Shown here: in pieces, positions 1 to 34,529 of the stretch
How the letters are laid out: each line of letters opens with the position of its first letter
Numbering within the stretch: position 1 is the first letter of the stretch
Source of the DNA: Ruminococcus sp.
GTDB taxonomy: Bacteria > Bacillota > Clostridia > Oscillospirales > Ruminococcaceae
Direction of reading: 5' to 3'
Length of the DNA stretch: 47,339 nt
Assembly: GCA_021770655.1 (NCBI GenBank)
Contig: JAETQO010000026.1
Coordinates: forward strand, 1 to 47,339
The notes under the pieces: generated by a model
The model's input: only the letters and a program-made list of their open reading frames with translations
The model's database searches: none
What the model was told of the DNA's origin: nothing
Made by a program: the position numbers and the translations under genes

Positions 1-1097
1 TGGTACTTGGTTACTGCATAGCCCTCGGGGAGGTCTACTGCTTCTAACTTGTAGCCTGCAAGATAAGTCTTGTCCTCTACGACTACGCTTGTTTCAAGCT
101 TTGTGAATTCGTACTTGCCGTTTTCGTCCGTTGCGGCGATCTGCGGTTCGTATGATTCGTCTAGCTTCCACTCGCCGTCGTAGTAGTATCTGTGAAGCTT
201 TACTTCTACGTCCTTGATTCCCTTTTCATCTTCGTCCTGAGAACCGTTGTAGTTCTCGTCGTTCCAGATGATTCCGCTGATTGTTGTCTGCTCTATCTTC
301 GTCAATCCGCCGTCGTTTCCGCTGTGAGATTCAGCCTTTACTATGTCGTACTTTGTTCCGTCCACAGTTCTTATGCTGTGCTCGTTTGCGTTCTCGTCCG
401 CTTTGACTGCGATGATGATATACTCGTCATCTTCTGTGAGTTTCAGCGTTCCCGGTTCAAGGTCACTGTCCTTGGTTTTATCCTTATCCGCGTGGTACTT
501 GGTTACTGCATAGCCCTTCGGCAAATCGGTAACTTCAAGTTTGTAGCCTGCGAGATAGGTTTGTCCGTCTACTTCTACGCTTGTTTCAAGCTCCGTGAAT
601 TCGTACTTGCCGGTTTCGTCGGTCTTGACTGTAATCGGTTCGTATGATTCGTCTAGCTTCCACTCGCCGTCGTAGTAGTATCTGTGAAGCTTTACTTCTG
701 CGTCCTTGATTCCCTTTTCGGTTTCCTCATGTACTCCGTTGTAGTTCTCGTCGTTCCAGATGATTCCGCCGATTGTTGTCTGCTCTATCTTCGTTAGTCC
801 GCCGTCGTTTCCGCTGTGAGATTCAGCCTTTACTATGTCGTACTTTTCTGTTCCGACTGTTCTTATGCTGAACTCGTTTGCGTTCTCGTCCGCTTTGACT
901 GCGATGATGATATACTCCTCATCCTCCGTGAGCTTCAGCGTTCCCGGTTCAAGGTCGCTGTCCTTGGTTTTATCCTTATCCACGTGGTACTTGGTTACTG
1001 CATAGCCCTCGGGGAGGTCTACTGCTTCTAACTTGTAGCCTGCAAGATAAGTCTTGTCCTCTACGACTACGCTTGTTTCAAGCTTTGTGAATTCGTA
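1..1097 (-). CDS. Continuation of the giant surface protein gene: SdrD B-like repeat units, both ends open, shifted frame
   Basis: Reading the minus strand from 1097 down to base 1 (tac codon at 1097-1095) gives an open frame with no stop. It has the same domain style as the giant gene to its right: a partial unit starting YEFTKLETSV, then two complete units with IIWNDENYNG, HRYYYDGEWK, YLAGYKLE and GYAVTKYH motifs. No methionine codon occurs, so it is not a separate gene. It lies in frame 2 of the minus strand, while the giant gene arrives in frame 1 and hits a stop at 1067 only because of the frame break at 1098/1099. I read it as the C-terminal part of the same protein, separated by a real frameshifting deletion or by an assembly error. 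The protein continues beyond base 1, so the anchor (LPxTG-like or other) is not visible. Confidence 0.8.
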
Positions 1098-1098
1098 C
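1..1098 (-). repeat. 492-bp tandem repeat, two full copies plus 114 bp of a third
   Basis: Units run 1-492, 493-984 and 985-1098. The period is exactly 492 bp (164 codons), so the frame is kept between units. Bases 1-114 and 985-1098 are identical, while the middle unit differs at scattered sites and in short blocks. Each unit encodes one SdrD B-like domain plus its linker. These copies are far more alike in DNA than the older units at 1100-6900, which points to recent duplication or gene conversion. The exact match stops at 1098, precisely where the reading frame breaks. Confidence 0.9.
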
Positions 1099-4000
1099 GC
1101 TGGATTTCGGTTAGTCCGCCGTTAATGTTATTAACTACACGATGTGTAGCAGGCAGATATGTTTCATCTCCGACTGTAACAGTATACTGGTCGGTGCTGT
1201 CGCCTTCATCAAGCAAGCACGCAAGAATGATATGCTCTCCCTTTTGGGTCATATTGCCGTTTTCAGCATTAATGTTGCTGTGTAAGCGATACTTGGTCAA
1301 ATCATCTCCGAATATTCTGAATTTTGTAACAGCATAATCCGCAGGAATACTCTCAAGATCAACCGCTATTTTATAGCCGTATAATCTCTTTTCGTTGTTC
1401 TGATCTTCTACCTTTCCGTGATCCTTGGCAACATGAACATTAAGTTCCGAGAATTCATAATAACCTGAATCGGCATCTGCATAGGTTTCTCTTTTGAACT
1501 CTTCATCGGCTGTCCACTTTCCTGTTTCATAATCATAAATATCACGGGTCAAAATGATCTTGACAGGTTCATGTACAGAGCCCTCTTTTTCATATTCATA
1601 CACGCCGTCGTAATTTTCATCATCCCAGATATATCCTGAGATCATTGTCGTATCCTGTCGCTTTACACCTGCGTCATAGTGACCTACCGATGTTCCGACG
1701 GCAACGTCAACAGTGATCGCAGAATCCTTTGTATTCTTAACAGTCTGTACTGCTGCACTGTTGTATTCACCGTCTGTTCCTGCCGTAGGTTCTGCCGCCG
1801 CAACGATGTACTCATCAGAGGTTGTAAGATTCATACTTCCTATCATAAGATCGCTGTCAACCGTAGGATCGTCACCCACGTGATGTTTTGTTGCAAGATA
1901 GGGTCCGTGAGCGTTTCTCAGATAAAGCTTGTACCCTGCCGCATAGCATTTTCCGTTTACATCGACTGCTGTCGGCAGATCTTCAAACTTGTAAACTCCC
2001 GCTCCGCTTGTCGTTACTGAAGCGAGCGCTGTCTTTGACAGTATCCATTCAGAACCATTATAGTAGTATTGATCTGCAACAACGATAATTCCGCTTATAG
2101 CTTGCAGATCTTCATCGGTATAATCAAATATATTGTCATTCTGTATACCGTCATAGTTCAGATCTACCCAGGCTCTGCCGTCTATCGAACCCGACGCGAT
2201 AGGTGCAAATCCTGCGTCATAACCGCTTACATCAGATTTTCTCAGAATGTCACAGCCTTCTACTTTATAAGGCGCATTTGCATAATTCTGAACATCGTCT
2301 TCGACCGACATTCCTACCGTAAAGACATTTTCGGAAGCATTTGTCAAATAATTTGTTTCATAGAGCAGGTCGTTATCCTGTACTCCGTTATTTTGCCTGT
2401 ATCTTGTTATTACATAATTCTCAGGAACATTTCCGTCAAATTTCAGTCTGTAATAACACAAATGTGTTTTGCCGTTAACGTTCACAAACGTTGGCACGCC
2501 GCTGAATTTATAAATTCCCGCATCGTTGGAAACTGCCGATACCTCAGCGTGTCCGTCCTTATCGGTAAGCTTTCCGTCTGAGTTTTCATAAACTCTTACA
2601 AAATTCTTATTTTCAGCGTCGTAGTAATACTTTTCAAGAAGTATCTTAACGCCTGAAATTCCCGACTCTCCGTCGTCGCCGGTCTGTCTGATACCGTCAT
2701 AATTTGCATCGTCCCAGACATAGCCTTGAATCTCAGCCTTTTCAACCTCTTTCAATCCGCCTGAATAACTGTCGATGTCAACTTGACCAATAATATCGTA
2801 ATCAACGTCGTTGTATCTGCGAATATAATGAGACGATACTGTCTCTGTCGCTTCCGCCGCAGTTATGATATATTCATCTGTTTGAGTCATGTATACGCTG
2901 CTGTCCTGTTCGCAGTTATTTACCCACAGCTTATTGTAAACTCCGCCGGTGCCGTCGGCAATCTGAGCCGATGCTGTTACGCCGTAGGTTATATTGCCGT
3001 TTGCGTCTGTCGGGAGCTTATCAAGCTTCAGCTTATAGCCTACCAGATACCTTACCCCGTCAACTTCAACAAAGGTAGGAACATTGGTAAATGTATACTT
3101 TCCATTAACGTCTGTTACCGAGTTATTCGTTATAGCAGGAGCATCAACCTTATTCCAATTGTTACCGTCATAATAATACTGCTCCAGAATTACATTCAGC
3201 CCGCTGTGACCATTTTCCAATGCGGCGTCATATATTCCGTTATAGTTATCATCATCCCAGATCACGCCGCTTATCTCAGAAGTCATGAACTCCTTGATAC
3301 CGCCGTTGTAATCGCCGGTGCTGTCCTGCTTTGTTATAATGTCATACTTGACAGTTTCGTCTCCGACTGTGTATTCGCGGACATAATAATCATTATACTG
3401 AGGTTCTTCCTTTTCTTCGCCTGTGAATTCCTCAGCCGCTCTTGCGGCAATGATATATTCGTCTGTAACAGTCATATCCAGCGTTGTATCGCTCCGCGGA
3501 ACAGAAATAACGTCGCTGTCGATTCCGTTTCCGACCTTGTATTTGGTAACGGCATAGCCCTTGGGCGCCGCCTGCATTCTCAGCTTATAGCTTGCCAGGA
3601 ACACCTTGTTATCCGCCGATACAGATGTCGGAACATTTGTAAATGTGTATTTGCCCTGTGCGTCTGTTTTTATTTCGGCTGTGCTTACAAACTGCCAGTT
3701 TCCGTCCGTATTAAGATAATACTTATCCAGATAAACGTTCAGTCCGCTTACACCGCTTTCTGTGCTGTCCTTAGTTCCGTCATAATTTTCATCATTCCAG
3801 ATAAGACCGCTTACAGTCGCTTTTTCCACTGCCTTGATACCGCCGTTGAAGTCCTTTACAGGTTCAATTGCCGTTACAATATCGTAAGCGTTAGTTTTTT
3901 CTCCGTAGTTATAATATCTTACATACAGATCGTTATAACCCTTATCAGCACTTCCGACAGCTCCGTTTTCGGCTGTCTTTGCAAGTATGATGTATTCGCC

Positions 4001-7000
4001 CTTTGCGTTGAAATCAACTGAACCGCTTCCGTCGGATTTTAAGGTAGCCGCAATAAGATCGCTGTTTACTGCCGATCCCTCGACACGGTACTTTGTAACT
4101 GCATATCCCTCAGGAACGGACGCAAGTCTGAGTCTGTAGCCTGCAAGATAATCTTCATTATTTTTAGTTACATAAGTATACAGTGTTTTGAAACTATAGT
4201 TTCCCGTCTTGTCCGTAACGCTGTTCAGCGTACGGTTAAGCTGCCACTTTCCGTCCGAATCAAGATAATACTCATCAAGATAAACGTTCAGATTTGCGTA
4301 GCCGCTTTCTTTGCTGCCTTTAAGACCGTCATAGTCTGCGTCGTTCCAGATAATACCGCTTATGCTTGAAGTTTCATACATCTTAACGCCGCCGTTGTAT
4401 TTATCTGTCACGTCATTCTTCACAACGCTGTCATAAGCGACCTTTTCATCGCCGTTTACATCATACAGAATATACGCATCGTTCTCAAGACCCTTTTCAG
4501 CCTTCTTGGCAACTATGAAGTAATCGCCGTCCGAAGGTGAAGTCAGATAATCCTTGACTTCATAAGTTCCGTCATAGCCTGCACCCTCCTGCTCGTTATA
4601 GGAAATCCAATCGCTGTCGATCTCCTCGCCGGAAGCCGCCTGCTTGTATCTTGTTACAGCGTATCCGCTTGGTACGCTGTCTGCCTTTATCCTGTAATAT
4701 GCAAGATAGTCTGTACCGTCCGATACCACATGAGTAGGAACCTTGCTGAACGTATATCTGCCCAAAGCCGCTTTTACAGCTGATGTTTTGACTGTATTGC
4801 TGTATCCGCCGACCTTAATAAACTTGCCGTCCTTTTTGTAATACTGCTCAAGAGTAATACTTACATTAGCCAGTCCGTTTTCCTTTGCGTCCTTGATACC
4901 GTTGTAGTTTGTATCCTCCCATATCATACCGGAAACTGTGGAGTATTCACGCTGTTTAAGACCTGCGTCCATACCCTCCAGACCTCTCGCTTTGATAAGG
5001 TCGTAATACATGGTCTTATTTTCCTTGGTATCGTAATTCTTAATGTTTGTTTGGCAAACATACTTGTAGTTATAATCGGTATAGCCCTCGTCTGCGTCGG
5101 AATTATTTCCCTCCTTTGCCTTCTGCGCAATGATAACATACTCGTTGTCATCTTCAAAGACTGTGAGCGGAATATTCGCTGTACGCTGGCTGTCCTCTTC
5201 ACCATTATCGTCGATCACATACAGCTTACTGTAAACAGTGTCCTTATCCTTATCGTTCCAGTATTTTGTTGCCGCATAATCGCTCGGAAGATTCTTGAAG
5301 CTTACCTTATAGCCTGCCAGATACTTTTCGCCGTCAACCGCAACGTATGTAGGAAGCTTATCAAATGAATAAGTTCCTGTCTTTGTTGTGATCTCCTTAA
5401 AGCTCTTCGAAGCATTAGAGTCTACCCATTTGCCACTGTTGAACTCATCAGGCTGATAATAATACTGCTCCAATACGACTGTTACATTAGATGTAAAGAG
5501 TTTTTCATTTTCTTCATCATAAACACCGTCGTATTCCGTATCGTTCCAGATCATACCGCTGATAGAGGACGTTTCAAACTCCTTAACGCCTCCGTCAAAG
5601 CCGTCATAATCTACAGCCTTGATATAATCGTATGCGTAATCGTGATTCTTGCCGCTTTCGTTCAAAAGGTAATCATCATAGATAATATACTCTTCAAAAT
5701 AAGTATTGCCTTCAAAGTCCGAAGCTGTTTCTTCCTTGCTGTGCTCAGCTGTGATGAAATAATCTCCGTCGCTTGGCGAAGTGAGATAGCTTTCAATGTC
5801 ATAATCAGTGTAACCTGCTCCGTTCTGGGAATTTTCTGAGATCAGGTGGCTGTCGATAACATTTACATTTTCAAGCTCGCCGTTCTGCTTATAGCGTGTG
5901 ACCGCGTAATTCTCATAGCCCTTCGGCAGACTGTTAAGCTTTAATCTGTAATGAGCAAGGATCTTACGTCCGTTAAGCTCAATGTAGGTAGGAACGTCCG
6001 TGAAAGTATACCTACCGTTCTTATCCGTCTTGACCTTAACTGGATAGTTATCCTCTACAGTAACCGCTGTACCGTCAATTTCGATTTGCTCGCCTTTGAC
6101 TATCTTTTTATACTCGCCGCCCAGATCAATATACATCTCCAACCGGATCTCAGCGCCCTCGATGCCCTTTTCATAGAACGAACCGTCCTCGGACTTGTTC
6201 ATGATACCGTCGTAATCGTAATCGGCATTATACTCGCCCTCGGCGTTCACTCCGTTATCGTCCCAGATATAACCGCTTACAACAGATGTTTCTATCTTTG
6301 TAAATCCGCCGTTATAGTCCAGAAGTCTTTGAGCATTGCCCATATTATAGTAGAACACTTTATTGTCCTTATCCGTATACTCTGCTATGCTGGTGTTGGT
6401 ATCAATTCCGTCGGAGTTTTTCTTCTGACCGGCAATGATTATCATATCATCACTGTAATTGTAATTGCTGTACTCTCCGGCAGGTTCGCCGTTTTCGTTA
6501 TAATCCGTCCAATCGTCGCCGATAAGGTAATACTTCATATCACCCTTATAGTAAATATCGCTGTTTTCGGTTGAACGATCTTTCGTATACTGCTTATACT
6601 TGGTTATTGCGTAATTCTTATACAGTTCCTCATTTTTTTCGGGGTCTACCATGAGTCTGTAACCCATAAGATACATTTTGCTGTCATCAGGCTTATTATA
6701 GTAGGACATGACATTCTGGAAAACATATGAACCGGACTCTGCGGTCTTTATGAACCTGTCTTTTCCTTCAATGTAATTCCATTTGCCGTCGTCATAGTAA
6801 TACGACTTGAGAGTAACTGTAACATTTCCGATACCCTTTTCAAAGGTATCCATGATACCGTTATAATTTTCATCGTCCCAGATCCAGTTTCCTAAGAAAC
6901 CTCTTCCGCCGTTTACAAAGCCGAGGGAAATGCTGTTGTTTATCTTAAAGCTCTGTCCGTCGTCTTCATATATAGGCTTTCCGTCGCTGTCCAAAGTCGG

Positions 7001-19000: not shown

Positions 19001-22000
19001 GACAGTATATTTTCCGCTTTGAACTCCGCTGAACTGTACAAAACCGTCCTTATCGGAAACGGCAGTATAAGACGCTTGCGTTTCACCGACCTCGAACAGA
19101 CCGAACTCGGCTCCGCTTATCGGCTTATCAAAATCAGAAACGATCTTGCACATTACAAAGGTCGGATCCTTTGTAGAATCAGGGTCGGGATAATCGATCT
19201 TTCCCTCATTTGGGTCATCGGTCTTAATATTTTTATCGTAATTGAAGTTTATAAACCAGTTTTCCTCTGTACCGTATAATTTCTTTAACTCAGATACAGG
19301 AATCTCAACCGTTTTCGCGGCTGAAAGGTTGGCATTCTTCTCACCCTTTGACTGAAGAGTAAGCTTGATCGTATCATCGTCATCAAAGTACTTGTAAATA
19401 TCTTTTTTGATCTCAAGTCCCGTTGTAAGGAAACCGTGATAATCATATGTTGCATCCGGATAAATAACAGGAAGCTTATCCGAAAGAACGACCTTATCGG
19501 AATATGAAAGCTTGTTTACCCAGTCGTACTGATCCGCACGGATTATCGGCGAAGCCATAGGCCAATGATAAGCATCGTTATCTGTTGTTGTTCTCGCCCA
19601 GTAATCTCCGACAGGAACATGAAGACGATAACCGCTGTCATTCTGATTCTCAGGCTTGATCTCATTAGGAGTTACATAGCCCCGACGATAAAAGCTTATA
19701 GCATAACTGTTGTCATTTGCAAAATGAGCAGATCTATTTTCATCAACATCAGGAGTTTCTCCAACGCCCTTGAGTACATTGTCCTTATCATTCAGAATGT
19801 GTACTCTGGTTTCGGAGTACAGATCTCTTGCAGTAGACTCGATAGGCGTGTTAGTCCAGTAGTAACCGTCATATGAGTTGTAATTTCTTGTCCAACTACG
19901 GTATCTATTCAAAAACGACCATTCAGACTTTTTGTTTGACGAACTACCCTTGTCGGTTCTTTCCTTACTTCTGCCGTTATTTCTGTTACCAACGGTAACC
20001 TCGGCGGAAGCTGTGGCAACCGCCTCACTCATTTTATAAAATCTTCCCGTAACCTCAAACATACCCTGCGTTGCGGAATCAGTCTGATCATACCATATAC
20101 CGTAATCGGGAGATGCGGCGGTCTCGCCGTCTTCCTGAGTTTGATTCTGGTTAATATCAATATTTACAACAACATTTTTTATGGGATTTTCGGGCGGATT
20201 TTTACCGTAATCCGACGGCTTTACATAATAGTACTTTTCGTCCTTGGAGAACAGTGTTTCAGACTTGCCGTCAACATTTATAAGATTTACCCTTGCAAAA
20301 TTCTCTCCGTTAAGCTGTTCTACAGCCTCATAACTGATATCTTTACCGTCAATCTTATATGTAGTTCCGTTTTTATAGGTAACGCTTATATAATTGATAT
20401 AGTCCTTCGCTCTTGGGTCGATCTTCAGATAATATGCGTCAAAACTGTCATAAGGCAGGTCTACGGAAAGATTTACCGTAGCCGCTGTATTTAACGATTC
20501 ATTATGAACATAAAGCATTTCCTGATGCTCCTGCGAATCATAAGAAGGATTTGCCTTGGGCAGTTCTTTACCGCTGTTATTATACTGTCTGAAATCTACA
20601 GCAAAGGAACCCATTGCCTTATAGCCTATTTCAAGCTCGGAGTTATCCGCATTTTCTCCCCACATAGCGGACTCTGAGAACAAGTAGCCGTTTCGACCGT
20701 ATACTCTTCCGTCGCTTTTATTAATGTTACCTTCCGGCTGTGCATAATTCTTTCTGATATGCTCGACTGCGCTGGAAGCCGCAGTATATTTTCCGCCTGC
20801 GGTAGTAGTCTTACCGTCGTTATAGAAAGACATAACAACAGTGTCAAAATACATCTTTGAAATGTATGCAGAGGTAATATCCTTGGCATTAACAATGTAC
20901 TTGTTTACGTCAAACTTCGCTGTGTTATATCCTTCGGATTCTCTGAAACAATCGAGATAGTTGTTAGTGTTTACAACCAGCGTATCGAATTTACCGAAAA
21001 TAGTATCGTCGTATCCGTAAAATTCGATATAACGCTTTTCGTTGTTTTCATCAGCATTTTCAACGATCTTGACCTGTTTGCCGTTCATCTCAACAGATGT
21101 AAGTGTTTTGATCCCGAAATTTTTAAGCAGCTGTTCATCCGTAAAGCTCAGCGACTTATCATCATCATACTCAAAAACAGTTTCCTCATTGCCCTTGAGA
21201 TAGAATCCGATAATTTTTCCGTCTTCTGTTTTAGGCAGTAAAACTGCTTTTTCAGCATCGGAATTACCCGAGTTTTTGCCGTTAAGTATAATATTATCCA
21301 CGGTCTTGAACTGATCGATCAGATCCTGATAGATCATAAGCTTAGTGGTATGGAATCCGGTTCCTGCCTCACCGTGCTTTTCATAAGGAACATCAGCGAT
21401 TATCTGAACATCGTCAAGGACAGAGATAGTATGGTTTCCGAATTCCGCACGGTACATAAAATCTCTGTCATAAGGTACGCCGGTGATAGTTTGATCCTTG
21501 TCGGTTGATATATCACTGCTCTGCGCTGTTTCCTTAACATTATTGTAGAAAATATGTGTATTTACGCTCAGATAAGGACGATCAACATGGAAAGTCGCAT
21601 TGCCTGATTTTTTCTGATCCTCCATAAGCTTATGCAACGGCGTAACAACGGTAGTTGCCTTCAAATCGTCAAACCAGTCGCTTTCTCCGTAAATACGCAC
21701 ATCAACAGCATTGCCTTTTTCTGAAGTCAAACTGCGCTCCATATCCTTATATACAATACGTATATTGGAGAGATATTCCATTTTGCCGTTAAGATCAACA
21801 GTAAAACTTCCGTCATCCTCTTTATAGGACTTCTCAAGCTCGTCTAAGGTAAGCGAAATCGTAGGCTCGTTTGCTCCAACCTCTTTTCCAAATTCATACA
21901 GTTCAATATGGTCAATAGCGCCCGATTCAGCATAATTTCCCGAAATTGTTACCTTGCTGCTCTTAAAGCCTTTGACAATTTCTTCATCATCTTTAGTTGT

Positions 22001-25000
22001 TTTTACACCTACGCTGTCAACACTTATATCAACATTTGCAGGTCCGACCTTTGAGATACTGTCATTCTCAATAACAAAGCTGTAAAACAGATCCTTAGCC
22101 TTATTGGGAACGGTAAGCTTATTTTGGCTTTCCTCTCCTCTGTTAGCCGTAGCCTCAACATTTATATTTGTTTCAGCAACAGACATAGTCGCCTCTGAAG
22201 TTGTCCTGGAAGCCTCATTGATACTTCCGACAACCTCGAAATAAACGGACGCTTTTAAACTGCCTATCCAGTCGGTATGTCCGTAAACATTAACATCAAG
22301 TTCATTGAGGTTGGAGGTATCCTTGTTTCCGTAAATCCTCGAAAAAACTATTCTTATTTTCTTTGCACGTTCGACACTATCAAGAATTGTAAGATAAACC
22401 TTTCCGTCCTCTGCTGTAAGCTCGTCAAGGGTAGCCGTATAATTCGGCTTGGCATTTGCAAGGTCAAGAGTATATGTATCATTATTCCAGTCGAAAATCT
22501 CTACTCTGTCAATAATAGCAGTAACTTCCTCGCCCTTGACATACTTGTCAAATTCGATCTTTCTGGCATCAAAGCCCTCCAGAACTTCCAGACCGTCAAC
22601 CGGGGGATTTCCTACGCTGTCAAGGGTAATATCCATAACAGACTGTGTTGCAGTGGACTGAGAATCATTTTTTAATGTGAATCTATACCAAGTATCATTC
22701 ACTTCGCTCTTATTGGGAACGGTGAGAGTAGGATATGTAACGATCTCATTTCCGTTTTTATCCTTTGTTCGTTTGATCTCAGCAGAATGCTTCTTGCCGT
22801 CGGCATCTATATAATGCACACTGCTGTCAATCACAGGAATGATTTTAGACACCTTAAGTATAGCCGTACCTGTTACAGACTGATCCTTTTCCGTCTGATC
22901 GTTGCCGTCAAAGCTGTAATCTGTAGAAAATACTGCCGTTGCCTCTATATCTGCTTCCGTAGTAGGCGTTCCGTTTATCTGAACGAAACAGTTGTCGTTT
23001 GATTTTTCATCTTCAAATGTAATGTGCGGTTTTACCGTGTTGAATTTCAGCTCAACATTAAGCAGATAGCTAAGCTTTAAATTCTTCCAGACAGAAGCCG
23101 GTATTACAAGGTTTCCGTCTTCAAGCACAGCTCCGCCCTTGGCAGTTATATTACCGTCCTTATCAACGGAATAATAATCGCCCAATGAAAGAGGCACTGT
23201 TTTATTGCCTTTTAAAATAACCGAATTGATCTCACTGTTTTTTAAAAGATTTTTGCTGAAGATCATTTTGGACGCAACAAGTCCGCCCTTGGAATATTGA
23301 TCATCAGGATATAGATTTCCGATGGTCATATTTGCAGGGGTTATCTCTGAATTGCTGTCGTTACTGATAACAAACCTAACTGCCGCTGTATCGTCGTTGA
23401 GCGATACCGACTGCTCTTTTCCCATATCTGTCCGCTTATAAATCGGGTCGTAAAATACGCCCAGCGGCGTAACGGCAGGGTTAGCCTTTTCGGTTTCGAT
23501 AACAGCACTGTCGGCAATAGTTCTGTGTTCAGCCTGATAATGCTCTTTATTATCAGAAGTTGCCGGTACAAAATATTTGAAATCATAAGTGGTAGTTATA
23601 TTATTCTCATAAGTCCAGAGATAGGGGAATTTTCCTTTCATGGTGATCAGACCGTTGAAAGTCTTGTAACGGTTGATCCTCTCCTTGAAAACGAATCTGA
23701 CTTCGTTGTTAAAGGTTAGTCCGTCCTGCTTTTCCAGAGCACTGCCGATCTTCAATTTCCATGTTTTAGAGCCTTCCTGATAGCCGGCTTCACCCTCTTC
23801 TTCCGCAGTAGTATTGGAAGAAAGCTCCACATTAAGCCCCAGTTCTTTTGCTGTTTTATAAACAGTTTTGCCCTCTGAATCTGTAAAACCAAATTCTATA
23901 AACTCGTTTATATCGCCGTCATTGACCTTAAACCAATCGGATAGCTGAATGTCCTTAAACTGCTTGCTGTTATCAAGTCTTACATCGATTTCCTGCAAGC
24001 CGAAATACTCAGGTACTTTATCGGTAGTGATTGCATTGAATACAGGAACGTTTCCAACGCTGTTAAAACCGTCGATATAGTATTCGTTTACAGTACCGAT
24101 CCCGGTAGTCTTGCTTTTGATTATGTTCTCTTCGCTGTCCTTAGCAACATATTTACGATGCTGAAAAAGGGCATCTCTGTCTGCACGCGTAAACTCGCTG
24201 ACATTAGTAGCCTCCTTACTCCAATGGATACTGCTGCTGCCGCCGAAAATAGCCGTAGATATTATCTTGGTTTCATTCTTATAACCCGTCGAACCGTTAA
24301 AATTGTTCGGATACGGTATAGCAACCATATATGTTCGTTCGCTGTAATATTTTTTACCGTCTGTTGAACTGCTGTTAAGACTTTCAGCCGCCTTGGGATT
24401 ATACAGAATATGAGAACCGTCCTTAGACTCATCGCATACGATTATAAGTCCTGAACCTGCATAACCGTAAGACATAAGAGGAGCGTCTATATTGCTGAAG
24501 GTCTCCAGATCCCACTCGTCTTTCCAATTCTCCTTATCGGTAACATCATAAATAAGCACTCCGCCCTCGTTAGGCTTACCGATAAAGTCGTTCTTTTCAT
24601 AAATACCTTCGCTTATATCATCATTTTTTTCCGCAGTGCCGTCCTTATATATCCACTGCATTATATCCTTATCGGCAACAGATCTCATGCCCGAAGAATC
24701 ATGCTGCGCCCTTACGCTCATCTGAAAATTATCAATAACGCTTTTTTCATCTTCGGAAGTATTCCTTATTTTGAGTTCGTACACCATATAGTTGTACTTA
24801 TCCCACATAACGGAATTTACTTTTTCAGTGCTGTCGTCCTTAAGCTTAACATTGGGAACGTTGACTATAGACGTCTCCCATTTCAAGTTAGAATTGACAA
24901 ACGTCAAACGCCTTGCACTCTTACTTTTTTCGTCGTCCGCATTTTTATCAGTTGACCACTTTGCCGATACTGTATTTCCTTCCTTATCATAATACTGAGA

Positions 25001-25675
25001 ACAAGAGAAGTCCAGCATTATTGACGCGGCGGCATTTTCAGGAACTATAGCGCCGGCACCGTTTCCGTCATAGAACTGTACATCAAAACTAGGTGTGGTT
25101 TCTCTAATAAACGAGTCTATTTGCTCATAAGTCATAGATTCATGTGATAATTTAAGCTTGCCTCTTGCCCAAGTTTGACCTTTCTCATCTACATACGACT
25201 GAAAAGGTTCTTCTTTTGCAGCGTCTCCGAAATTGGATTTATCATGCACTCTAGCCTGAATACCCATATATTGACCGGACTTTCTCAGCTCCTCCGGTAT
25301 CTCGGAAAAATTATACGTAGTTATGAGAACACCGTTATTATAATAGAAATACGGGAGAGTTAATGTAAGATCATAAATATCAGGACGAATATCGTCAAAC
25401 TGAGAATCAATACTTATCTTAGTTACTACCGATATATCATCAGACCTAGAGATCATATAAAACGGATCGTTATGCTCATCGCCGTCATTGGCAGGTTTCA
25501 GCGTTGTGTTTCCGTTATTTACATATGAAAATGCAACATTAAAGCTAGGCGAAGAATCACCGGACACCTCGTCAACAGCCTCAGCTAAAATTTCTATGTA
25601 ACTGGGAGAAAGCAGCATACATACTGCGAGTAAAAAGCTTATTCCTCTCTTAAAAATATTATTGATGCCAATCAC
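1067..25675 (-). CDS. Giant secreted surface protein with SpaA/Cna-B and SdrD B-like repeats (8202 aa before frame break)
   Basis: The product is a predicted cell-surface adhesin or stalk of roughly 0.9 MDa. The start is a GTG at 25675 with an AGAGGGG ribosome site six bases upstream. Residues 1-33 form a signal peptide: FKRG, the hydrophobic stretch FLLAVCMLL, and a likely cut after AEA. Residues ~750-1900 hold several copies of an unrecognised ~200-residue module. Residues ~2172-2470 are three SpaA/Cna-B prealbumin-like domains (GAEFGLF, GVEFGLYD; DGFF.F; YVVRQ). SdrD B-like domains begin near 5848. From about 6258 they repeat every 160-240 residues with IWNDxNYDG loops that resemble calcium sites, then TDxxGxYxF, YLAGYKL and GYAVTKY. 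The last ten residues (RTNSQSLKQA) are an artefact of the break at 1098/1099, where a unit jumps out of frame into another. A sortase gene is divergent. Ligand and anchor are unknown. The gene is certain, its 3' end is not. Confidence 0.93.
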   Translation of the reverse strand: MIGINNIFKRGISFLLAVCMLLSPSYIEILAEAVDEVSGDSSPSFNVAFSYVNNGNTTLKPANDGDEHNDPFYMISRSDDISVVTKISIDSQFDDIRPDIYDLTLTLPYFYYNNGVLITTYNFSEIPEELRKSGQYMGIQARVHDKSNFGDAAKEEPFQSYVDEKGQTWARGKLKLSHESMTYEQIDSFIRETTPSFDVQFYDGNGAGAIVPENAAASIMLDFSCSQYYDKEGNTVSAKWSTDKNADDEKSKSARRLTFVNSNLKWETSIVNVPNVKLKDDSTEKVNSVMWDKYNYMVYELKIRNTSEDEKSVIDNFQMSVRAQHDSSGMRSVADKDIMQWIYKDGTAEKNDDISEGIYEKNDFIGKPNEGGVLIYDVTDKENWKDEWDLETFSNIDAPLMSYGYAGSGLIIVCDESKDGSHILYNPKAAESLNSSSTDGKKYYSERTYMVAIPYPNNFNGSTGYKNETKIISTAIFGGSSSIHWSKEATNVSEFTRADRDALFQHRKYVAKDSEENIIKSKTTGIGTVNEYYIDGFNSVGNVPVFNAITTDKVPEYFGLQEIDVRLDNSKQFKDIQLSDWFKVNDGDINEFIEFGFTDSEGKTVYKTAKELGLNVELSSNTTAEEEGEAGYQEGSKTWKLKIGSALEKQDGLTFNNEVRFVFKERINRYKTFNGLITMKGKFPYLWTYENNITTTYDFKYFVPATSDNKEHYQAEHRTIADSAVIETEKANPAVTPLGVFYDPIYKRTDMGKEQSVSLNDDTAAVRFVISNDSNSEITPANMTIGNLYPDDQYSKGGLVASKMIFSKNLLKNSEINSVILKGNKTVPLSLGDYYSVDKDGNITAKGGAVLEDGNLVIPASVWKNLKLSYLLNVELKFNTVKPHITFEDEKSNDNCFVQINGTPTTEADIEATAVFSTDYSFDGNDQTEKDQSVTGTAILKVSKIIPVIDSSVHYIDADGKKHSAEIKRTKDKNGNEIVTYPTLTVPNKSEVNDTWYRFTLKNDSQSTATQSVMDITLDSVGNPPVDGLEVLEGFDARKIEFDKYVKGEEVTAIIDRVEIFDWNNDTYTLDLANAKPNYTATLDELTAEDGKVYLTILDSVERAKKIRIVFSRIYGNKDTSNLNELDVNVYGHTDWIGSLKASVYFEVVGSINEASRTTSEATMSVAETNINVEATANRGEESQNKLTVPNKAKDLFYSFVIENDSISKVGPANVDISVDSVGVKTTKDDEEIVKGFKSSKVTISGNYAESGAIDHIELYEFGKEVGANEPTISLTLDELEKSYKEDDGSFTVDLNGKMEYLSNIRIVYKDMERSLTSEKGNAVDVRIYGESDWFDDLKATTVVTPLHKLMEDQKKSGNATFHVDRPYLSVNTHIFYNNVKETAQSSDISTDKDQTITGVPYDRDFMYRAEFGNHTISVLDDVQIIADVPYEKHGEAGTGFHTTKLMIYQDLIDQFKTVDNIILNGKNSGNSDAEKAVLLPKTEDGKIIGFYLKGNEETVFEYDDDKSLSFTDEQLLKNFGIKTLTSVEMNGKQVKIVENADENNEKRYIEFYGYDDTIFGKFDTLVVNTNNYLDCFRESEGYNTAKFDVNKYIVNAKDITSAYISKMYFDTVVMSFYNDGKTTTAGGKYTAASSAVEHIRKNYAQPEGNINKSDGRVYGRNGYLFSESAMWGENADNSELEIGYKAMGSFAVDFRQYNNSGKELPKANPSYDSQEHQEMLYVHNESLNTAATVNLSVDLPYDSFDAYYLKIDPRAKDYINYISVTYKNGTTYKIDGKDISYEAVEQLNGENFARVNLINVDGKSETLFSKDEKYYYVKPSDYGKNPPENPIKNVVVNIDINQNQTQEDGETAASPDYGIWYDQTDSATQGMFEVTGRFYKMSEAVATASAEVTVGNRNNGRSKERTDKGSSSNKKSEWSFLNRYRSWTRNYNSYDGYYWTNTPIESTARDLYSETRVHILNDKDNVLKGVGETPDVDENRSAHFANDNSYAISFYRRGYVTPNEIKPENQNDSGYRLHVPVGDYWARTTTDNDAYHWPMASPIIRADQYDWVNKLSYSDKVVLSDKLPVIYPDATYDYHGFLTTGLEIKKDIYKYFDDDDTIKLTLQSKGEKNANLSAAKTVEIPVSELKKLYGTEENWFINFNYDKNIKTDDPNEGKIDYPDPDSTKDPTFVMCKIVSDFDKPISGAEFGLFEVGETQASYTAVSDKDGFVQFSGVQSGKYTVKQTKALAGYEKNETAYEVPEVMSDNNIVTLDNVIKLKLIPSYISESEFPKIESTDEPAIIGKITGSDGVALKNVSVGLFDKNSALSPIMTASTDDNGFFIFKNVKNGEYFVKQTGTAEGYKQSKEQYNVKFDNPVDADTKVTYPEIKIKGDNNEDSEGYQSAVVMGKAMDNEGTPLAGVEFGLYDRSDSEYANPLMSVKTDSDGFFIFSGISNGDYVVRQISAVDGCIQNTNAYNVTVDDEKKVFTIGEDAVVNKREVSSKNYVGLIKIPQAFVNVSEKAGDGQGSTVTKPDYNAGFTVDTSDGKYTIVMEENTYVTNYEMTMYDLPGTADYSKEVQNKTKADYHTEQKWDILVHGKPYVINVKDDDADGTNTAYTNTYTDYDPNTSIYTHNDKALIMGYLISFSGGYTITTENNNNSQSICDFVQKKANGSYDNITPENGLYKVKVFNQNKNNAEGEDAAAKIDSVSTVNTMDANYRLRHIYIPAFLIDEKWFGIDSLTLNVNGKKVPVKVVKGTGENGLDEDGNYVVYVNKTESVQGEAVYTVDVEDIIRKLGSDYTTSYTNTSNNKPYLKAFVSSFELNLRAVNPDRTNKDTVLGDGEYLSATKKNDRYSFMYDGVFADRTEENFEKNTWDYTSNPTVGKSPNAYPSTNVYGKLSVTFTSCDPNANIFQYRNTDGTAKGNVKSAYYNVKNLLGKLIVDVSRDNIYDLDSKTQPERIAVDYLHLMPNDYVEYKLTAGAANDSPLIPVEHTDITFNVPAGQRIVKWVVENDKGKILAVSEKASENILAGDITAKLSDGTNTINAQQGVDYALAAVGGADKAEETKFDTLTVSLGSGKKDQDRIMPGEKIYVRVITQLTDNGGNFDGKTTDNTTVSFQSAPCHTYPQYYIDNTDSYTSASGSYRNSSDIVGVTYYYRSTYRDADGQTQYKTVGKNNLTFQSVSPVKLSYSVDNKAENYDGKSSKLTISGITNETGHYCDEYEVNVSFIEKRDKNFYRGFELTAPYTVKPNENFGHVEVLYAVAKENKANSDENIEFELDDEGEIAVEWKSYEYDPNSPEKSKYATAKMTNEELANVVGVKWVYYDLKGFDTNAQYSSTNKVSQPLDDVELTGVGRYQDIFDATSAKNDTYTQFFTADNKYTHIHSEDKKAVTVTVEGSKVAEENTAVEHIVNIKDKTVINPKVYRENPIASFHTQTFASKESASAVYNIERAQKKAYRPNDEIWQKVTLKNNLAVTNTKGEQAGEEGRLIDPVFYDKIPEYFSETLYDKYKAGASLGEFGVRLVDRNGKEKPHDDLELYLVGVTEKEDYDYAGKMTYTDGYKTGNVREKVFNDLNTDIKNVYTINFKIYEVKLRYKDDPNKKFVLMPGERIEFWYNAKIRQNDLPMVFTASTFSNDGTPSEVESDGLHPAYFPRVGEYWQTRVNNYYNSDEHGNLYPMLEGGYQSSADAQSNFKQIQNSGILMDMDYLIHDIGFSAEKNTQVDMWEFLDQTYTVIPGSNSTNSALGGQNGVLADEDISTANNMQYDAAKKTANVRYTANSTISKPEDLDKLPTSVTYVSNGNNRDWFKLAMGKRNSNYADWKDLKVPEVPKVPVVWSETRIHLQKAWLASSSEFISSDTSGNIQYEATTGDYTSMAINPNYPDYAYHGTWNQSHAKGSYYNSVDSVTDRSGAVALEYGENINVNLKAYNYGDWGLDGVTFIYTFAYGMKPVFNEDGKTIDVKAFTNTGLSNTDSFAAIDADKVEVELIQTPDTKDPKYFAPKKMRDPEQNPDMSDSESDFYTAKEYVPYVVKITVKNPLNKWFNRGSDFGYITKVTIPARIFTNTEVGYWYDRVLTAPYVDVAKNSQNHYYYQIYDIDHWDGSTKTGTQHNQNNGMDYMWNPVWWCCYSTGTLQLGSLIYGAASPNTPSVNGYNIQNKEVVVSDDKPMGKFTNNKSTNNKNENSYSTADIKNIYAETGTRAIQRKPLVRTWTTISETVGKSENEMYGTDVEQYYTETQGEVNWLNIHVENKYWWDQYAWNNYGSRDWVREKVFHNYNVDGGQKGTLSLPVITNVLPYGIVPVAEDGSRFTTDNTNNEGKRVAWDMYDRDGITKLDVQKNLYDTLAYYDETTKRYVVQIFAIKDNDTSANANEAELAERKKAEAVIPNDALYNFCIKTFTYAEPETYTKNNGEEPDLSQNYQNNYSYVSSKVNAYKFITDDDIKDNPYTVCSPAAIGNLRNNYYSFYNRNADARKDAITTDVNIKQNSHNNYHRMSAGVLPMTPETNGFTTNNIAPDKYVLLNHNFEKNTYMIGKMQKYSESDKMNMEDYTSVREDKYLPANVRSALNRDTDIFTSATDFTHSDITAAGPYNDMGAVNTLKIRTQTPSMKTENMVAAEKTEEGMTGGEVVMDETEDRRKYQYNGKDFDYSDVLWYSAKISNVPDGNYRYRGSIFHAKTVVSFKLPQNVIYWDDDDYLDDYYIEYVNKITGETEKLTVSDAKKNGWGVELVKRSFDENTATADSDKFDLQRANSLKKRGCETVVFEITTPPSPNFDCNDDKTYVAGERPAGSFYGELTFKIKTRIENLEVIADASQQGDWENYYSKVYVTYCDTDGKFAITNDGIFAERDKDGNYYTRGGCLIPETDEYGNKVYNEYGNVIYVEKERQQVNKSEIRYDTYDFNLSEQNMESMKLEHSERYDEDEDVSGIEKSDYGIYMTASSAKVSVIQPKSTIRANLNATRTQVNDPDAELVIAEDPHVRQAFATVAYLSQVSNDTASLNEFVVNYNLAYHATSMGSLEEATLSDRKVFPHLQYMTTGNWSIPEAADLETEYGDKYNELVHDVLTKHLKVYPYLLISTAPEQESAYIYPETEADDGIYSNEKAETAYWVRIGEKDGYSLDANAVIKIDKENLIDPHENVKAVCEKGDLIDSVRQIRWVIRTEGFDDEFELNGNNIRITLTDEEAAKYFPVPAGLRMNVDADPDTDGIQDMSDIDPNNYSLNPVPESVAENSARLQFTTSPDPNESLSASVHNNHFVSVIRRYDDYKYSLGENRARLGYYLDPQLPWVAIDISSKYFEGSAGEGYKWSPNITGIKGQNSKVLKYTVTYKNLSSSLLATESYGSRNAVEDNLANPNIVLVLPYLESLSESKFEHVDFQDDSQTASGIEDYYIGDNYSTSAVKDENDKVVEYARNLDNVTPQWTWHIENEYGEYVSIRDTDKNIEELKKRFTTEKFNGLEEYKRKYVVNEEQNKIESDNTPSFDVKPITLNGLNRKMINFKYNGTLLPGERIVIELMVPIETGNTNAVSNELLQAKAYGFKNGTFRAYIPSDQENSSEMVSYEVDSHDVNSNGNTRDMAITKSSNALGLSTLSTVTRHKSASSDFDTVQMSVPVRVQEGGNYSYSASLQNDTPLNTNVDYNKMVFYDILPYIGDGRESTWNGYLIPESVYLRLTDEKGVSSRFDTSKFEVWVGPIQKTGNSYTLKTVDDIPVRNVTENDYNNLYLNDSNKYKQNFVKLSELLSDRENGNISDKEYEEIVRGIRAIWAEVTDTGYNLPSKNRLELVYDLHAPLNLPKYVGTPTSEEKNQSKYNAEIAEQVKDTTQNNDFSGRYWDAATGGGQYSVLLSNKAGAYITAPTGRGYLGSYVWNDFNYDAKTNEAKYEKSENGRSLPTELTTDIDFDGKPDDPGINGVTVELLTKTGYPVNKDGKAVVADPDPTTNPYPETPRYALINQETGEYDYSDPINKTFSYTSYGPVTYTTENDWFGNQGYFILSNLEPGEYLLRYTFPEEYNQYSVTTRELGDTKTPIMVYRDGEVVYNGTPANENSSVTKDAMTQTAAISKEGKLVVQTTVPVKVDPVVDDSDQSTVTDRYANHEEYDLGMTSYMLGVSRAYTYGGYTWLDETKTEENNETVINSNGIMEESEEKLDNIYVAMYEVDDDGNISKEVAVDGDGNKAEFTTKKGGYYSFRLYPNKNYVVVAKNETKTPLKPSPFTLHNDPLAADDDNDISMVVGTFRTKPFLTGPTLDSDGKPIYEDDGQSFKINNSISLGFVNGGRGFLGNWIWDDENYNGIMDTFEKGIGNVTVTLKSYYYDDGKWNYIEGKDRFIKTAESGSYVFQNVMSYYNKPDDSKMYLMGYRLMVDPEKNEELYKNYAITKYKQYTKDRSTENSDIYYKGDMKYYLIGDDWTDYNENGEPAGEYSNYNYSDDMIIIAGQKKNSDGIDTNTSIAEYTDKDNKVFYYNMGNAQRLLDYNGGFTKIETSVVSGYIWDDNGVNAEGEYNADYDYDGIMNKSEDGSFYEKGIEGAEIRLEMYIDLGGEYKKIVKGEQIEIDGTAVTVEDNYPVKVKTDKNGRYTFTDVPTYIELNGRKILAHYRLKLNSLPKGYENYAVTRYKQNGELENVNVIDSHLISENSQNGAGYTDYDIESYLTSPSDGDYFITAEHSKEETASDFEGNTYFEEYIIYDDYLLNESGKNHDYAYDYIKAVDYDGFDGGVKEFETSSISGMIWNDTEYDGVYDEENEKLFTSNVTVVLEQYYYQPDEFNSGKWVDSNASKSFKEITTKTGTYSFDKLPTYVAVDGEKYLAGYKVSFKNLPSDYAATKYWNDKDKDTVYSKLYVIDDNGEEDSQRTANIPLTVFEDDNEYVIIAQKAKEGNNSDADEGYTDYNYKYVCQTNIKNYDTKENKTMYYDLIKARGLEGMDAGLKQREYSTVSGMIWEDTNYNGIKDAKENGLANVSITLEQYYKKDGKFIKVGGYSNTVKTSAVKAALGRYTFSKVPTHVVSDGTDYLAYYRIKADSVPSGYAVTRYKQAASGEEIDSDWISYNEQEGAGYDGTYEVKDYLTSPSDGDYFIVAKKAEKGLENDAYILYDVNGDEKVAYDSVVKNDVTDKYNGGVKMYETSSISGIIWNDADYDGLKGSKESGYANLNVYLDEYYLDSDGKWQLNRTLNSVTDKTGNYSFKTLYTYVTKNNEDYLAGYRLRLASVPEGYAVTKYRVEGSAVNSDLIAATLKSDGSGSVDFNAKGEYIILAKTAENGAVGSADKGYNDLYVRYYNYGEKTNAYDIVTAIEPVKDFNGGIKAVEKATVSGLIWNDENYDGTKDSTESGVSGLNVYLDKYYLNTDGNWQFVSTAEIKTDAQGKYTFTNVPTSVSADNKVFLASYKLRMQAAPKGYAVTKYKVGNGIDSDVISVPRSDTTLDMTVTDEYIIAARAAEEFTGEEKEEPQYNDYYVREYTVGDETVKYDIITKQDSTGDYNGGIKEFMTSEISGVIWDDDNYNGIYDAALENGHSGLNVILEQYYYDGNNWNKVDAPAITNNSVTDVNGKYTFTNVPTFVEVDGVRYLVGYKLKLDKLPTDANGNITYGVTASAQIADGTGGVYNKLWVNNCEQDSSVYMTQTDEYIITAAEATETVSSHYIRRYNDVDYDIIGQVDIDSYSGGLKEVEKAEIQGYVWDDANYDGIRQTGDDGESGISGVKILLEKYYYDAENKNFVRVYENSDGKLTDKDGHAEVSAVSNDAGIYKFSGVPTFVNVNGKTHLCYYRLKFDGNVPENYVITRYRQNNGVQDNDLLYETNYLTNASENVFTVGMSVEDDVQNYANAPYKVEGCDILRKSDVSGYDAGFAPIASGSIDGRAWVDLNYDGIQNDNIFDYTDEDLQAISGIIVVADQYYYNGSEWILSKTALASVTTSGAGVYKFEDLPTAVDVNGKCYAAGYKLYLRNAHGPYLATKHHVGDDPTVDSDLMIGSMNLTTSDEYIVAAAEPTAGTDGEYNSAAVQTVKNTKDSAITVDVAVGTSVGHYDAGVKRQDTTMISGYIWDDENYDGVYEYEKEGSVHEPVKIILTRDIYDYETGKWTADEEFKRETYADADSGYYEFSELNVHVAKDHGKVEDQNNEKRLYGYKIAVDLESIPADYAVTKFRIFGDDLTKYRLHSNINAENGNMTQKGEHIILACLLDEGDSTDQYTVTVGDETYLPATHRVVNNINGGLTEIQRTNSQSLKQA
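1100..6915 (-). repeat. Array of ten diverged SdrD B-like units within the giant gene
   Basis: Ten units start near residues 6258, 6468, 6705, 6918, 7108, 7291, 7471, 7651, 7833 and 8013. Each opens with a G.IW.D.NYDG type loop, has a YYYDxG.W strand, a TDxxGxYxFxxVPT segment, YLAGYKL and GYAVTKY, then a linker with DEYIIAA and YDI..NGG. Spacing shrinks from about 240 to about 180 residues toward the C-terminus. Unit 10 ends with GGLTEIQ and is followed directly by the frame break. Acidic D-x-N-x-D-G loops suggest calcium binding, as is known for SdrD B domains of staphylococcal adhesins. Confidence 0.82.
18260..19165 (-). other. Three tandem SpaA/Cna-B type domains inside the giant protein
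   Basis: Residues ~2172-2470 hold three domains of about 100 residues. Each has the pattern 'xxGKxxDxxGxPLxGVxFGLYDxxx...TDxDGFFxFxxxxxGxYxVKQ'. The lysine near the start (VMCKI, IIGKI, VMGKA) and the glutamate in the AEFGL/VEFGLY motif fit the intramolecular isopeptide pair known in pilin-type SpaA domains; the second copy has VSVGLFD and lacks that glutamate. Placing such rigid domains a quarter of the way along the chain, not at the wall end, is unusual. Confidence 0.75.
19970..23420 (-). repeat. Unrecognised ~200-residue module repeated in the N-terminal third of the giant protein
   Basis: Copies begin near residues 758, 988, 1187, 1395 and 1720. The second and third are clearest. Both have LTVPNK, then an aromatic-rich F.L.NDS or F.IENDS strand, DI..DSVG, a G..S.K or G..A.KI strand, a 'Y...G.ID..E' turn, TLDEL, IRIV, and a closing 'DV.IYG..DW...LKA'. 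The other copies share only the 'NDS/NHT' opening, the G.....K..I block and the ID.I.L turn. The pattern looks like a repeating beta-sandwich, but I cannot name the family. Confidence 0.5.
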
Positions 25676-25780
25676 TTTAAACCCCTCTATTCTATATGGT
25701 TATCCAAAAATTTCTTTTAAATCTTTTCAATTATACACATTATGTTTACAAGATATGAACATAATATTATGATTAAACTT

Positions 25781-25810
25781 ATTATATCATATTTTATATA
25801 TTGTTGTCAA
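25781..25810 (-). promoter_or_regulatory. Sigma-A promoter of the giant surface protein gene
   Basis: On the minus strand TTGACA (25810-25805) is followed after 18 bases by TATAAT (25786-25781). Transcription would start near 25775, leaving a 5' leader of about 100 bases before the GTG at 25675. Both hexamers match consensus exactly. Confidence 0.8.
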
Positions 25811-25968: not shown

Positions 25969-25997
25969 TTGAAATTTCAAAAAAATGATGCTATAAT
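25969..25997 (+). promoter_or_regulatory. Sigma-A promoter of the sortase gene
   Basis: TTGAAA (25969-25974), 17-base spacer, TATAAT (25992-25997). The predicted start of transcription is near 26004. It overlaps a possible in-frame TTG start at 25969, which therefore cannot be the true translation start. Confidence 0.8.
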
Positions 25998-26043
25998 ACA
26001 ATTGACAACCTTAAAAATGCTCATTAAAGGAAATGAAAAATCA

Positions 26044-27769: not shown

Positions 27770-28126
27770 GATTTTTGTGGTTAAAAAATGGTTATGAATT
27801 ATATTACGAATTGACAAATAATGTGGAAACTAATGACTGTCGGCGAAATCAATTATGTAATAAAACCGGTATAGGTCTCTCTGTTGCTATAGGTTCAGGT
27901 CAAGCGAACGCTGTTATTACTCAGCTTAACAACTACATCAAAACAGGATGTTATGCGATTTTAATTTTTCAGTGTATACCTAAAATAGGAAGATCTTCAT
28001 AAAAAGATCCGTTACCTTGATAACCTGAAAATTATTGATGCAAAATGTGAAAATGCGGTTTAATTTAAGAATGTTGATTTTTGATTTGCAAACTAAACCT
28101 TGAATCTAAAAACGGAGGTTGGTAAG
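27770..28126 (+). other. Long 5' leader of the phosphorelay operon, function unknown
   Basis: About 355 bases separate the promoter from the first start codon. A 75-codon frame (GTG at 27775 to 28002) fills part of it but has no ribosome site. A small hairpin (GATCTT/AAGATC near 27991-28009) is present, without a following T run. I do not see a c-di-GMP riboswitch signature or any other known aptamer. The leader may hold a degenerate gene or an unrecognised RNA element. Confidence 0.4.
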
Positions 28127-29644: not shown

Positions 29645-29656
29645 GGAGGATTTTTT

Positions 29657-30016
29657 ATGACTCTAGAAGAAGCTTATTCTAAGCTCCAAGGAGATTATGG
29701 AAAAGTAATGAAACTTTTGAGAAACCCCGCTTTGGTAAAAAAATTTGCACTTAAATTTATTGACGACGAAAGTTTTGAGCTCCTTGAAAAATCGCTTAAC
29801 GAAAAAAAATATACGGAAGCGTTCAGAGCCGCTCATACTTTGAAGGGCGTGTGTCTTAACCTTTGCTTTGACAAGCTTTATCTTTCTGCCGCAGAAATGA
29901 CCGAAGACCTTCGTCCGGGTATACCGACCGACAAAACAGAGGAGATTTTCAATCGTTTGAAAGACGACTATTTAATTACTGTCTCGGCGTTAAAAGAACT
30001 TTCGGAGGAATTATAA
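29657..30016 (+). CDS. Stand-alone histidine phosphotransfer (Hpt) protein
   Basis: This 119-aa helical protein shuttles phosphate between receiver domains in a phosphorelay. The site is His60 in AAHTLKGVCLNL, the classic Hpt motif. The start ATG at 29657 follows AAGGAGGA by six bases, and the gene begins 12 bases after the HD-GYP regulator. Its TAA stop is immediately followed by the TTG start of the hybrid kinase, so the two are likely translationally coupled. Kinase receiver to Hpt to HD-GYP receiver is the obvious path, given order and coupling. No membrane segment. Confidence 0.9.
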   Translation: MTLEEAYSKLQGDYGKVMKLLRNPALVKKFALKFIDDESFELLEKSLNEKKYTEAFRAAHTLKGVCLNLCFDKLYLSAAEMTEDLRPGIPTDKTEEIFNRLKDDYLITVSALKELSEEL

Positions 30017-33512: not shown

Positions 33513-33519
33513 GGCGCAT

Positions 33520-34518: not shown

Positions 34519-34529
34519 ACTTACAAAAT

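Follow-up and report, generated by a model that had tools for sequence, protein, structure and literature searches.

On its minus strand, the window (the whole stretch of 47,339 nucleotides from Ruminococcus sp. that was analysed) carries most of a gene for a giant surface protein, which we read, with a probability of roughly 0.6, as a wall-anchored, fibrillar and probably adhesive protein that, in most Bacillota members of its family, has a helper of its own at the membrane. In the sequence, this reading rests on an N terminus of the secretion type, roughly 5,500 distal residues that contain no known domain and are mostly conserved, an SdrD_B stalk, and a sortase-type signal located on a second contig. 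The protein is a member of an orthologous family of giants spanning two phyla, to judge from a colinear match of the body in all 16 relatives compared (16/16).

The open frame and its start

The frame (1067..25675, minus strand) is unbroken from a GTG start at 25675 to a stop at 1067, comprises 8,202 codons, and predicts an acidic protein of 8,202 aa, about 924 kDa and pI 4.6; at 41% G+C, we judge an open frame of this length to be far beyond chance. It is preceded by a promoter (25781..25810, minus strand) with TTGACA, an 18-base spacer, TATAAT and a TG before the -10 element, matching at 12/12 bases. Because the 551-base promoter stretch contained eight promoter-like sites, against a mean of 4.1 in shuffles, only this perfect site was given weight. 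A ribosome-binding site, AGAGGGG (25682..25688, minus strand), lies 6 bases 5' of the GTG, and a signal-peptide-like N terminus occupies approximately residues 1-31 (25583..25675, minus strand), both recognised by eye. The uninterrupted frame with promoter, ribosome site and signal peptide that the first-pass annotation had described was thus recovered, and its view that one gene encodes a surface protein exceeding 8,200 residues is borne out by the signal-peptide-like start, the SdrD_B stalk, the sorting-type signal on the second contig (C66), which has a membrane helix and a basic tail, and independent genomes in which the protein is likewise encoded by an unbroken frame (6,701 codons in G161, assembled in 4 contigs; 6,947 and 6,939 codons in Beduini massiliensis). 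Riboswitch control, as in the sortase substrates of C. difficile, was looked for without support: Rfam at gathering thresholds returned only tRNAs in the window and C66. One tRNA gene is present in the window (38076-38148) and three are on C66 (L004 3410-3699).

The contig ends and the true end of the gene

The window is the whole of contig C25, in a genome of 2.657 Mb assembled in 92 contigs. Its first 1,098 bases (1..1098, minus strand) hold a tandem array of a 492-base (164-codon) SdrD_B unit, 2.2 copies of which extend to the contig end in a frame other than that of the giant. Adjacent copies show 86% matches (87% over 613 bases), and elsewhere in the genome the repeat was matched only at the end of C66. 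A 114-base stretch at 985-1098 recurs with 100% identity at the contig end (window 1-114), and the frame break at 1098 coincides exactly with the start of this recurring stretch, leaving the last 10 codons of the frame (below 1098) as an out-of-frame tail at the repeat junction. A second frame break was found on C66 near 10363, where 137 bases recur at 99% (L004 10227-10363 and 10564-10700). Because both breaks sit at the edges of stretches that are repeated at the contig's own end, they were most likely made by the assembly at an unresolved repeat, and 1067 is probably not the true end of the gene.

Read in the sense of the giant, C66 continues the SdrD_B array and then encodes ...NSPQTSDD, a hydrophobic helix and RKRKDEEKD. 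Gene order further supports the link between C25 and C66, as the array on C66 is succeeded by a gene of the same type as the one next to the giant in relatives. The end copies of the two contigs are 96% identical at best, which suggests that they are different copies; if so, about 8,900 residues are visible on the two contigs (8,192 + 366 + 365, from coordinates). The earlier statement that the protein continues past the window therefore has to be reworded: the frame itself stops at 1067 and the window is a whole contig, but the end of the gene, with its sorting signal, lies on C66. Near its far end, C66 carries a 51-base direct repeat in 2.9 copies (L004 185-330). The contig of the closest relative, G1117 (C60; L080-L081), likewise breaks off at the corresponding position in the SdrD_B stalk, a hint that this species, too, may carry an array of nearly identical repeats.

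Domain layout of the giant

The distal part begins with a conserved N-terminal region (residues 191-690; 23606..25105, minus strand) that has no Pfam match above the cut-off and no PDB match. It is followed by approximately four diverged repeats of about 220 aa (residues 691-1530; 21086..23605, minus strand), detected by profile self-comparison and without Pfam match, and by a further conserved region (residues 1531-2160; 19196..21085, minus strand; alignment A3 spans 1501-2130), again without match. Three SpaA prealbumin-like domains were identified by Pfam in residues 2161-2465 (18281..19195, minus strand), with overlapping CarboxypepD_reg and SdrD_B matches; no relative in the colinearity set of 16, which does not include G1117, extends over residues 2201-2400. 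Residues 2466-5840 (8156..18280, minus strand) form a conserved, non-repetitive body of 3,375 residues with no Pfam match above the cut-off and no PDB match for 2533-5840. The stalk (residues 5841-8192; 1099..8155, minus strand) comprises about 12 SdrD_B-type repeats, delimited by Pfam, profile self-matches and eye, with an array of similar units at its membrane-proximal end. By eye, stalk units start at residues 5842, 6097, 6259, 6466, 6707, 6916, 7107, 7290, 7470, 7651, ~7833 and 8014; Pfam recognises SdrD_B from about residue 6261, and profile self-matches indicate repeats some 190 residues long between about 6100 and 8192, with a short match at 5840. DxDxDG-like loops are present in the SdrD_B domains of the stalk.

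The profile for the self-comparison was built from 16 relatives and compared in 200-residue windows with at most 8 alternative alignments each. The possibility that the body consists of diverged repeats was rejected, as no off-diagonal match of at least 40% probability occurred inside residues 2466-5830. The first-pass annotation had noted that the middle of the protein, about residues 2500-5800, matches no nameable domain; this proved correct for 2466-5840 as a distinct and non-repetitive region, and the unmatched part is larger than was first stated, since residues 1-2160 are likewise without a Pfam match. Accordingly, no known adhesive domain was found by Pfam above the cut-off in residues 1-2160 or 2466-5840. 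In the giant's own row only SpaA, CarboxypepD_reg and SdrD_B exceeded the Pfam cut-offs (DUF3859 was sub-threshold), and NCBIfam matches were all far below cut-off, the SdrD/SdrC models reaching 22.7-45.4 bits compared with cut-offs of 1700-2500. The SD repeat is absent from the giant, the longest run being a single SD.

Five alignments were used to search for more remote similarity: A1 (residues 3401-4500; 31 rows), A2 (191-1000; 17 rows), A3 (1501-2130; 23 rows), A4 (2533-3400; 17 rows) and A5 (4501-5840; 19 rows). A1 contains the window and 30 of 49 matching stretches, three Beduini duplicates, five stretches with long inserts and 11 partial ones having been left out. For A2 to A5, stretches with less than 60% coverage, long inserts or masked letters were set aside beforehand; A2 kept each of its 17 candidate rows, the window among them, A3 23 of 36, A4 17 of 24 and A5 19 of 30. 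PDB profile searches with the five alignments, which span residues 191-1000, 1501-2130 and 2533-5840 (1-190 and 1001-1500 lying outside them), yielded nothing meaningful, with a best E of 0.44 and a few chance matches at E 0.4-0.9. Pfam matches among the relatives' rows were scattered: DUF7507, DUF11, DUF7927, DUF7619 and Trypan_PARP in one row each of A1, a weak DUF7619 in 4/17 rows and a GDSL model in one row of A2, DUF7896 in 1/23 rows of A3, and none in the 19 rows of A5 (0/19).

A colinear family of giants in two phyla

Relatives whose frames are intact (6,701 to 34,927 codons) are patchily distributed in the Bacillota and in the family of Adlercreutzia (Eggerthellaceae). Residues 1-1000, used as a query against a collection of named genomes, matched two loci, in Beduini massiliensis (Bacillota) and Adlercreutzia mucosicola (Actinomycetota), and matched 2/197 genomes of the giant's own family; alignment A1 detected 4/396 genomes in that family and, in the own genus, 1/8, namely the genome studied here. 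The same genome was the only one found with residues 3501-4400 in samples of the class (1/391) and the phylum (1/398), where a single-protein query may miss distant relatives and to which G161 does not belong. The family was present in 1/4 genomes of the genus of G161, in 4/43 of the family of Beduini, and in 18/138 of the Eggerthellaceae. The latter contributed 42 frames (counted manually) of 4,173-34,927 codons, of which 39 have at least 8,000 and 16 more than 20,000 codons; these lengths were measured between stop codons, and contig ends truncate some of the frames. To our knowledge, few bacterial surface proteins at large reach more than 8,200 residues, and the first-pass annotation was right in this respect; within the family, by contrast, such a size is ordinary among the Eggerthellaceae, with 39 of 42 frames at or above 8,000 codons. 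A family match on contig C39 of G1101, from the family of Adlercreutzia, lies near 52722-56420 in the frame of 34,927 codons, a length among or close to those of the largest known bacterial proteins. The C termini of the Eggerthellaceae giants, where read, are mostly LPxTGD-like with a helix and a basic tail.

Residues 2533-7823 of the giant aligned with residues 1794-6657 of the G161 protein in one continuous alignment of 34% identity, and each of the 16 relatives examined gave a chain of matches in the same order over 4,958-7,456 of the giant's residues. G1117 is the closest relative (59% identity to residues 3401-4500). A four-way alignment of the giant with the proteins of G161 and the two Beduini loci contained 20 to 71 invariant residues per 200-residue block of the body, with poor coverage at 1001-1200, 2001-2600 and 6401-6800. 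In the longer Eggerthellaceae giants the order is kept with inserts between the blocks, a frame of 22,326 codons matching in 16 pieces. In all six close Eggerthellaceae pairs (3,166-6,195 codons each), dN/dS was 0.12-0.64, which shows these giants to be under coding constraint; the higher values suggest that some copies change faster.

In a tree of 36 body segments, 27 Eggerthellaceae rows were separated from nine Bacillota rows with a branch support of 100/100; the partial row of G1310 formed a very long branch. The place of the giant in this tree, together with genes of its genome such as the class B sortase and DnaD- and DnaI-type genes, points to a Bacillota host. The Bacillota part of the tree departs from the taxon families, as G1252, from the giant's own family, grouped with G1330, from the family of Beduini (100/100). 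The tree of the partner gene described below gave the same splits, with the two Beduini loci (BedA, BedB) together, G1252 with G1330 (93/93), and these four set against the own protein, G161 and G1313. This agreement suggests that giant and partner were transferred jointly among families of Bacillota. The G+C content of the giant loci ranges from 30% to 66%, and the transfers look old, since the G+C of a locus is taken to follow that of its host. A mobile origin was looked for and found no support: body residues 3501-4400 or alignment A1 had no match in plasmids, phages or IMG/VR.

A partner gene of the SBP_bac_5 type

On C66, about 300 bases 3' of the end of the giant and on the same strand, we found a gene whose 536-residue product has a helix at the N terminus and contains an SBP_bac_5 domain (PF00496; 135.6 bits in this genome and 106.6 bits in G161, cut-off 32.4). 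It is the next gene after the giant in 7/8 Bacillota loci with a visible 3' end, and it lies within about 60 bases of the giant, or overlaps it, in G161, both Beduini loci, G1252, G1313 and G1330. In G1310, other genes are found 3' of the giant, and the contig of G1117 ends inside the array. An N-terminal hydrophobic helix is present in 7/7 partners (mean hydropathy 2.2-3.3), with a lipobox-like MAAC, seen by eye, only in BedA. The PDB relatives of the partner are oligopeptide- and nickel-binding proteins (OppA, AppA, NikA).

The partners form a subfamily of their own: a model built from the remaining members gave each omitted one 244-335 bits, and with the full model in 31 genomes the seven members, which are members by construction, scored 545-639 bits and the other proteins listed at most 106. 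The subfamily was not found in 18 genomes that lack the giant (best match at most 76 bits). The full model also gave no member-level match in G1117, G1310 or any of five Eggerthellaceae genomes (5/5), and tblastn detected no partner in 13 stretches around Eggerthellaceae giants. As the partner is not beside the giant of G1310 and was not found in G1117 or in the Eggerthellaceae searched, it is not essential to the giant family. In a partial check of the flanks, no oligopeptide permease was seen on C66 or upstream of the BedA giant; C66 carries HPr (by eye) and PtsI beyond the partner, and the four genes upstream of the BedA giant encode a HAD hydrolase, an RpiR-type regulator, a polysaccharide deacetylase and a GH32 enzyme.

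Sortase and neighbourhood

The divergent neighbour 5' of the giant (25969..27189, plus strand; start probably at an ATG near 26044) encodes a class B sortase, which reached 129.4 bits on the class B model, below the cut-off of 153.75. Two further sortases were listed in the genome, in a listing that does not contain the class B neighbour. The sorting motif of the giant is SPQTS and not SPxTG, and several other Bacillota members are looser still. SPKTG is cut by SrtB of C. difficile (PMC4371152). A pairing of the putative SPQTS signal with the neighbouring class B sortase would be attractive. When the C terminus of the giant was used as a query, no other protein with an end of this type was detected. 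A class B sortase as a fixed part of the system was dropped, as it adjoins this copy only: BLAST detected none beside the other Bacillota loci, of which only four had upstream flanks of at least 7 kb.

Near the sortase, window positions 28100-32551 encode a response regulator with an HD domain, a small Hpt-like protein (by eye) and a hybrid histidine kinase, possibly a cluster for cyclic-di-GMP-type signalling. Genes for a Bce-type ABC transporter, recognised by eye, lie near the giant both here (32838-37466) and in G161 (L010 1-4121), which may be chance; Bce-type clusters are common. Further along the window, a gene at 38795-39907 encodes a GDSL-type lipase/acylhydrolase with a C-terminal extension that has no Pfam match.

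Discussion

Taken as a wall-anchored fibre, the giant would be exported by Sec, with the body outermost and the SdrD_B rod directed toward the wall, and the neighbouring class B sortase would link its C terminus to peptidoglycan. The SdrD_B domains would form a stiff, calcium-stabilised rod; B domains are described as calcium-stabilised and able to withstand more than 2 nN (PMC6232131). Gain and loss of units in the DNA-level array would alter the distance of the body from the wall, and the conserved body would bind something outside the cell, so that the giant would act as an adhesin or capture fibre. The SBP-type partner, finally, would hold the emerging chain at the membrane in the manner of a chaperone. 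This last is the weakest step. Its fold, its company with the giant and the shared tree lead us to read the partner as a helper devoted to the giant in most Bacillota loci; that it most likely holds the chain as a chaperone would is favoured because proteins of its fold bind peptides, because OppA of another species is reported to have chaperone-like activity (PMC7442780), and because no permease was seen alongside in the flanks checked.

The main alternative to such a holder or folding helper is peptide uptake. The giant might be a nutrient-capture fibre whose body binds gut peptides or glycans and hands peptides to the SBP-type protein, the two forming a two-part uptake system; the oligopeptide/nickel-binding fold of the partner (OppA, AppA, NikA) and its position as the next gene in most Bacillota loci would suit such a role, but the flanks checked beside the pair, on C66 and upstream of BedA, contain no oligopeptide permease, and the Eggerthellaceae giants do without the partner, which makes this reading rather improbable. 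Unlikely, too, is that the giant mainly binds its own copies in aggregation, a biofilm or a sheath, as a structural coat with no foreign target. Many conserved blocks, none repeated and all in a set order, would suit a long fibre that assembles with itself, and the acidic composition and the failure of Pfam to find a ligand-binding domain point the same way, yet the patchy presence, in one of the eight genomes of its own genus, fits an accessory binding trait equally well. That the long frame is chimeric, through misassembly or gene fusion, is very improbable in spite of the repeat-made junctions at both contig ends: most of it can be aligned to unbroken frames from independent genomes, one of them assembled in four contigs, and these relatives in effect refute an artefact up to about residue 7,900, leaving only the array and its length to which the doubt could apply. 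We accordingly keep to the wall-anchored, probably adhesive fibre. A stronger version, in which the ordered body of several thousand residues is one machine whose layout is kept across two phyla, with a co-evolved SBP-type assembler or receiver in most Bacillota members, would make it a new surface apparatus; we regard this as a tentative proposal, more doubtful than not.

Giant genes are reportedly the subject of work by Reva and Tummler in 2008, which PMC3778203 cites. Giant genes of Adlercreutzia were reported in 2013, with frames of 74,766 and 74,247 bases and a C-terminal LPXTG (PMC3778203), and from taxon and size we infer that both belong to the present family. They share the giant frame with our protein, which is shorter, comes from another phylum and has a different sorting motif; PMC3778203 contains no analysis of their domains, homology or partners. 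Size differences of Adlercreutzia giants between subspecies (PMC8142583) and the absence of giant genes in a related strain (PMC4599084) are noted in later papers. The main text of a 2024 survey of huge proteins does not mention Eggerthella, Adlercreutzia, adhesins or SdrD (PMC11573180), and our literature search, covering titles and the starts of abstracts with subscription journals mostly outside its reach, found no publication on the Bacillota branch, the shared body or the SBP-type partner.

Among known systems, the adhesin of Mobiluncus mulieris (7,651 residues) is likewise a Gram-positive, wall-anchored giant with a long N-terminal region before the stalk, but, compared by description, it has 51 repeat Ig-like domains with cross-links, whereas our giant has about 5,500 residues without Pfam match and an unrepeated body (PMC10619420). 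Fibrillar adhesins are defined by large length, a surface anchor, repeated stalk domains and a recognisable adhesive domain (PMC9210967); the giant has the length (8,202+ aa), an anchor (SPQTSDD, helix and basic tail on C66) and SdrD_B repeats. It also resembles the periscope proteins (PMC8201768, PMC9210967) in having highly similar tandem stalk units at the DNA level (the 492-base unit, 86% between adjacent copies), which are prone to length change; its own units are of the SdrD_B type. SdrD_B stalk domains are common to the giant and to staphylococcal SdrC/SdrD, from which it differs in its distal part and in having no SD repeat. Giant1-5 of Apilactobacillus kunkeei are also surface giants, of 3,000-8,000 residues, in a Gram-positive host-associated bacterium, and are described as beta-solenoid; the likeness to our protein is one of description (PMC12863079). 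The SrtB substrates of C. difficile share the combination of a class B sortase and an SPxT-type motif, the fifth residue being S in our protein and not G (PMC4371152). Wall-anchored giants with SdrD_B-type stalks are a known kind; what is new is the conserved, unnamed body and the dedicated partner, and most of the family has not been described before.

Surface giants of bacteria are generally known as series of a single domain repeated many times, as in the Mobiluncus adhesin. In the present family, thousands of residues are conserved in order across two phyla and are accounted for neither by curated families nor by the sequences of solved structures. The partner gene in the Bacillota offers a first handle on how so long a chain is exported, held and anchored, and frames of up to 34,927 codons bear on the limits of protein size. 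For gut bacteria, the giant represents a sizeable accessory trait in which species of the same genus differ, one genome of eight having been found to carry it.
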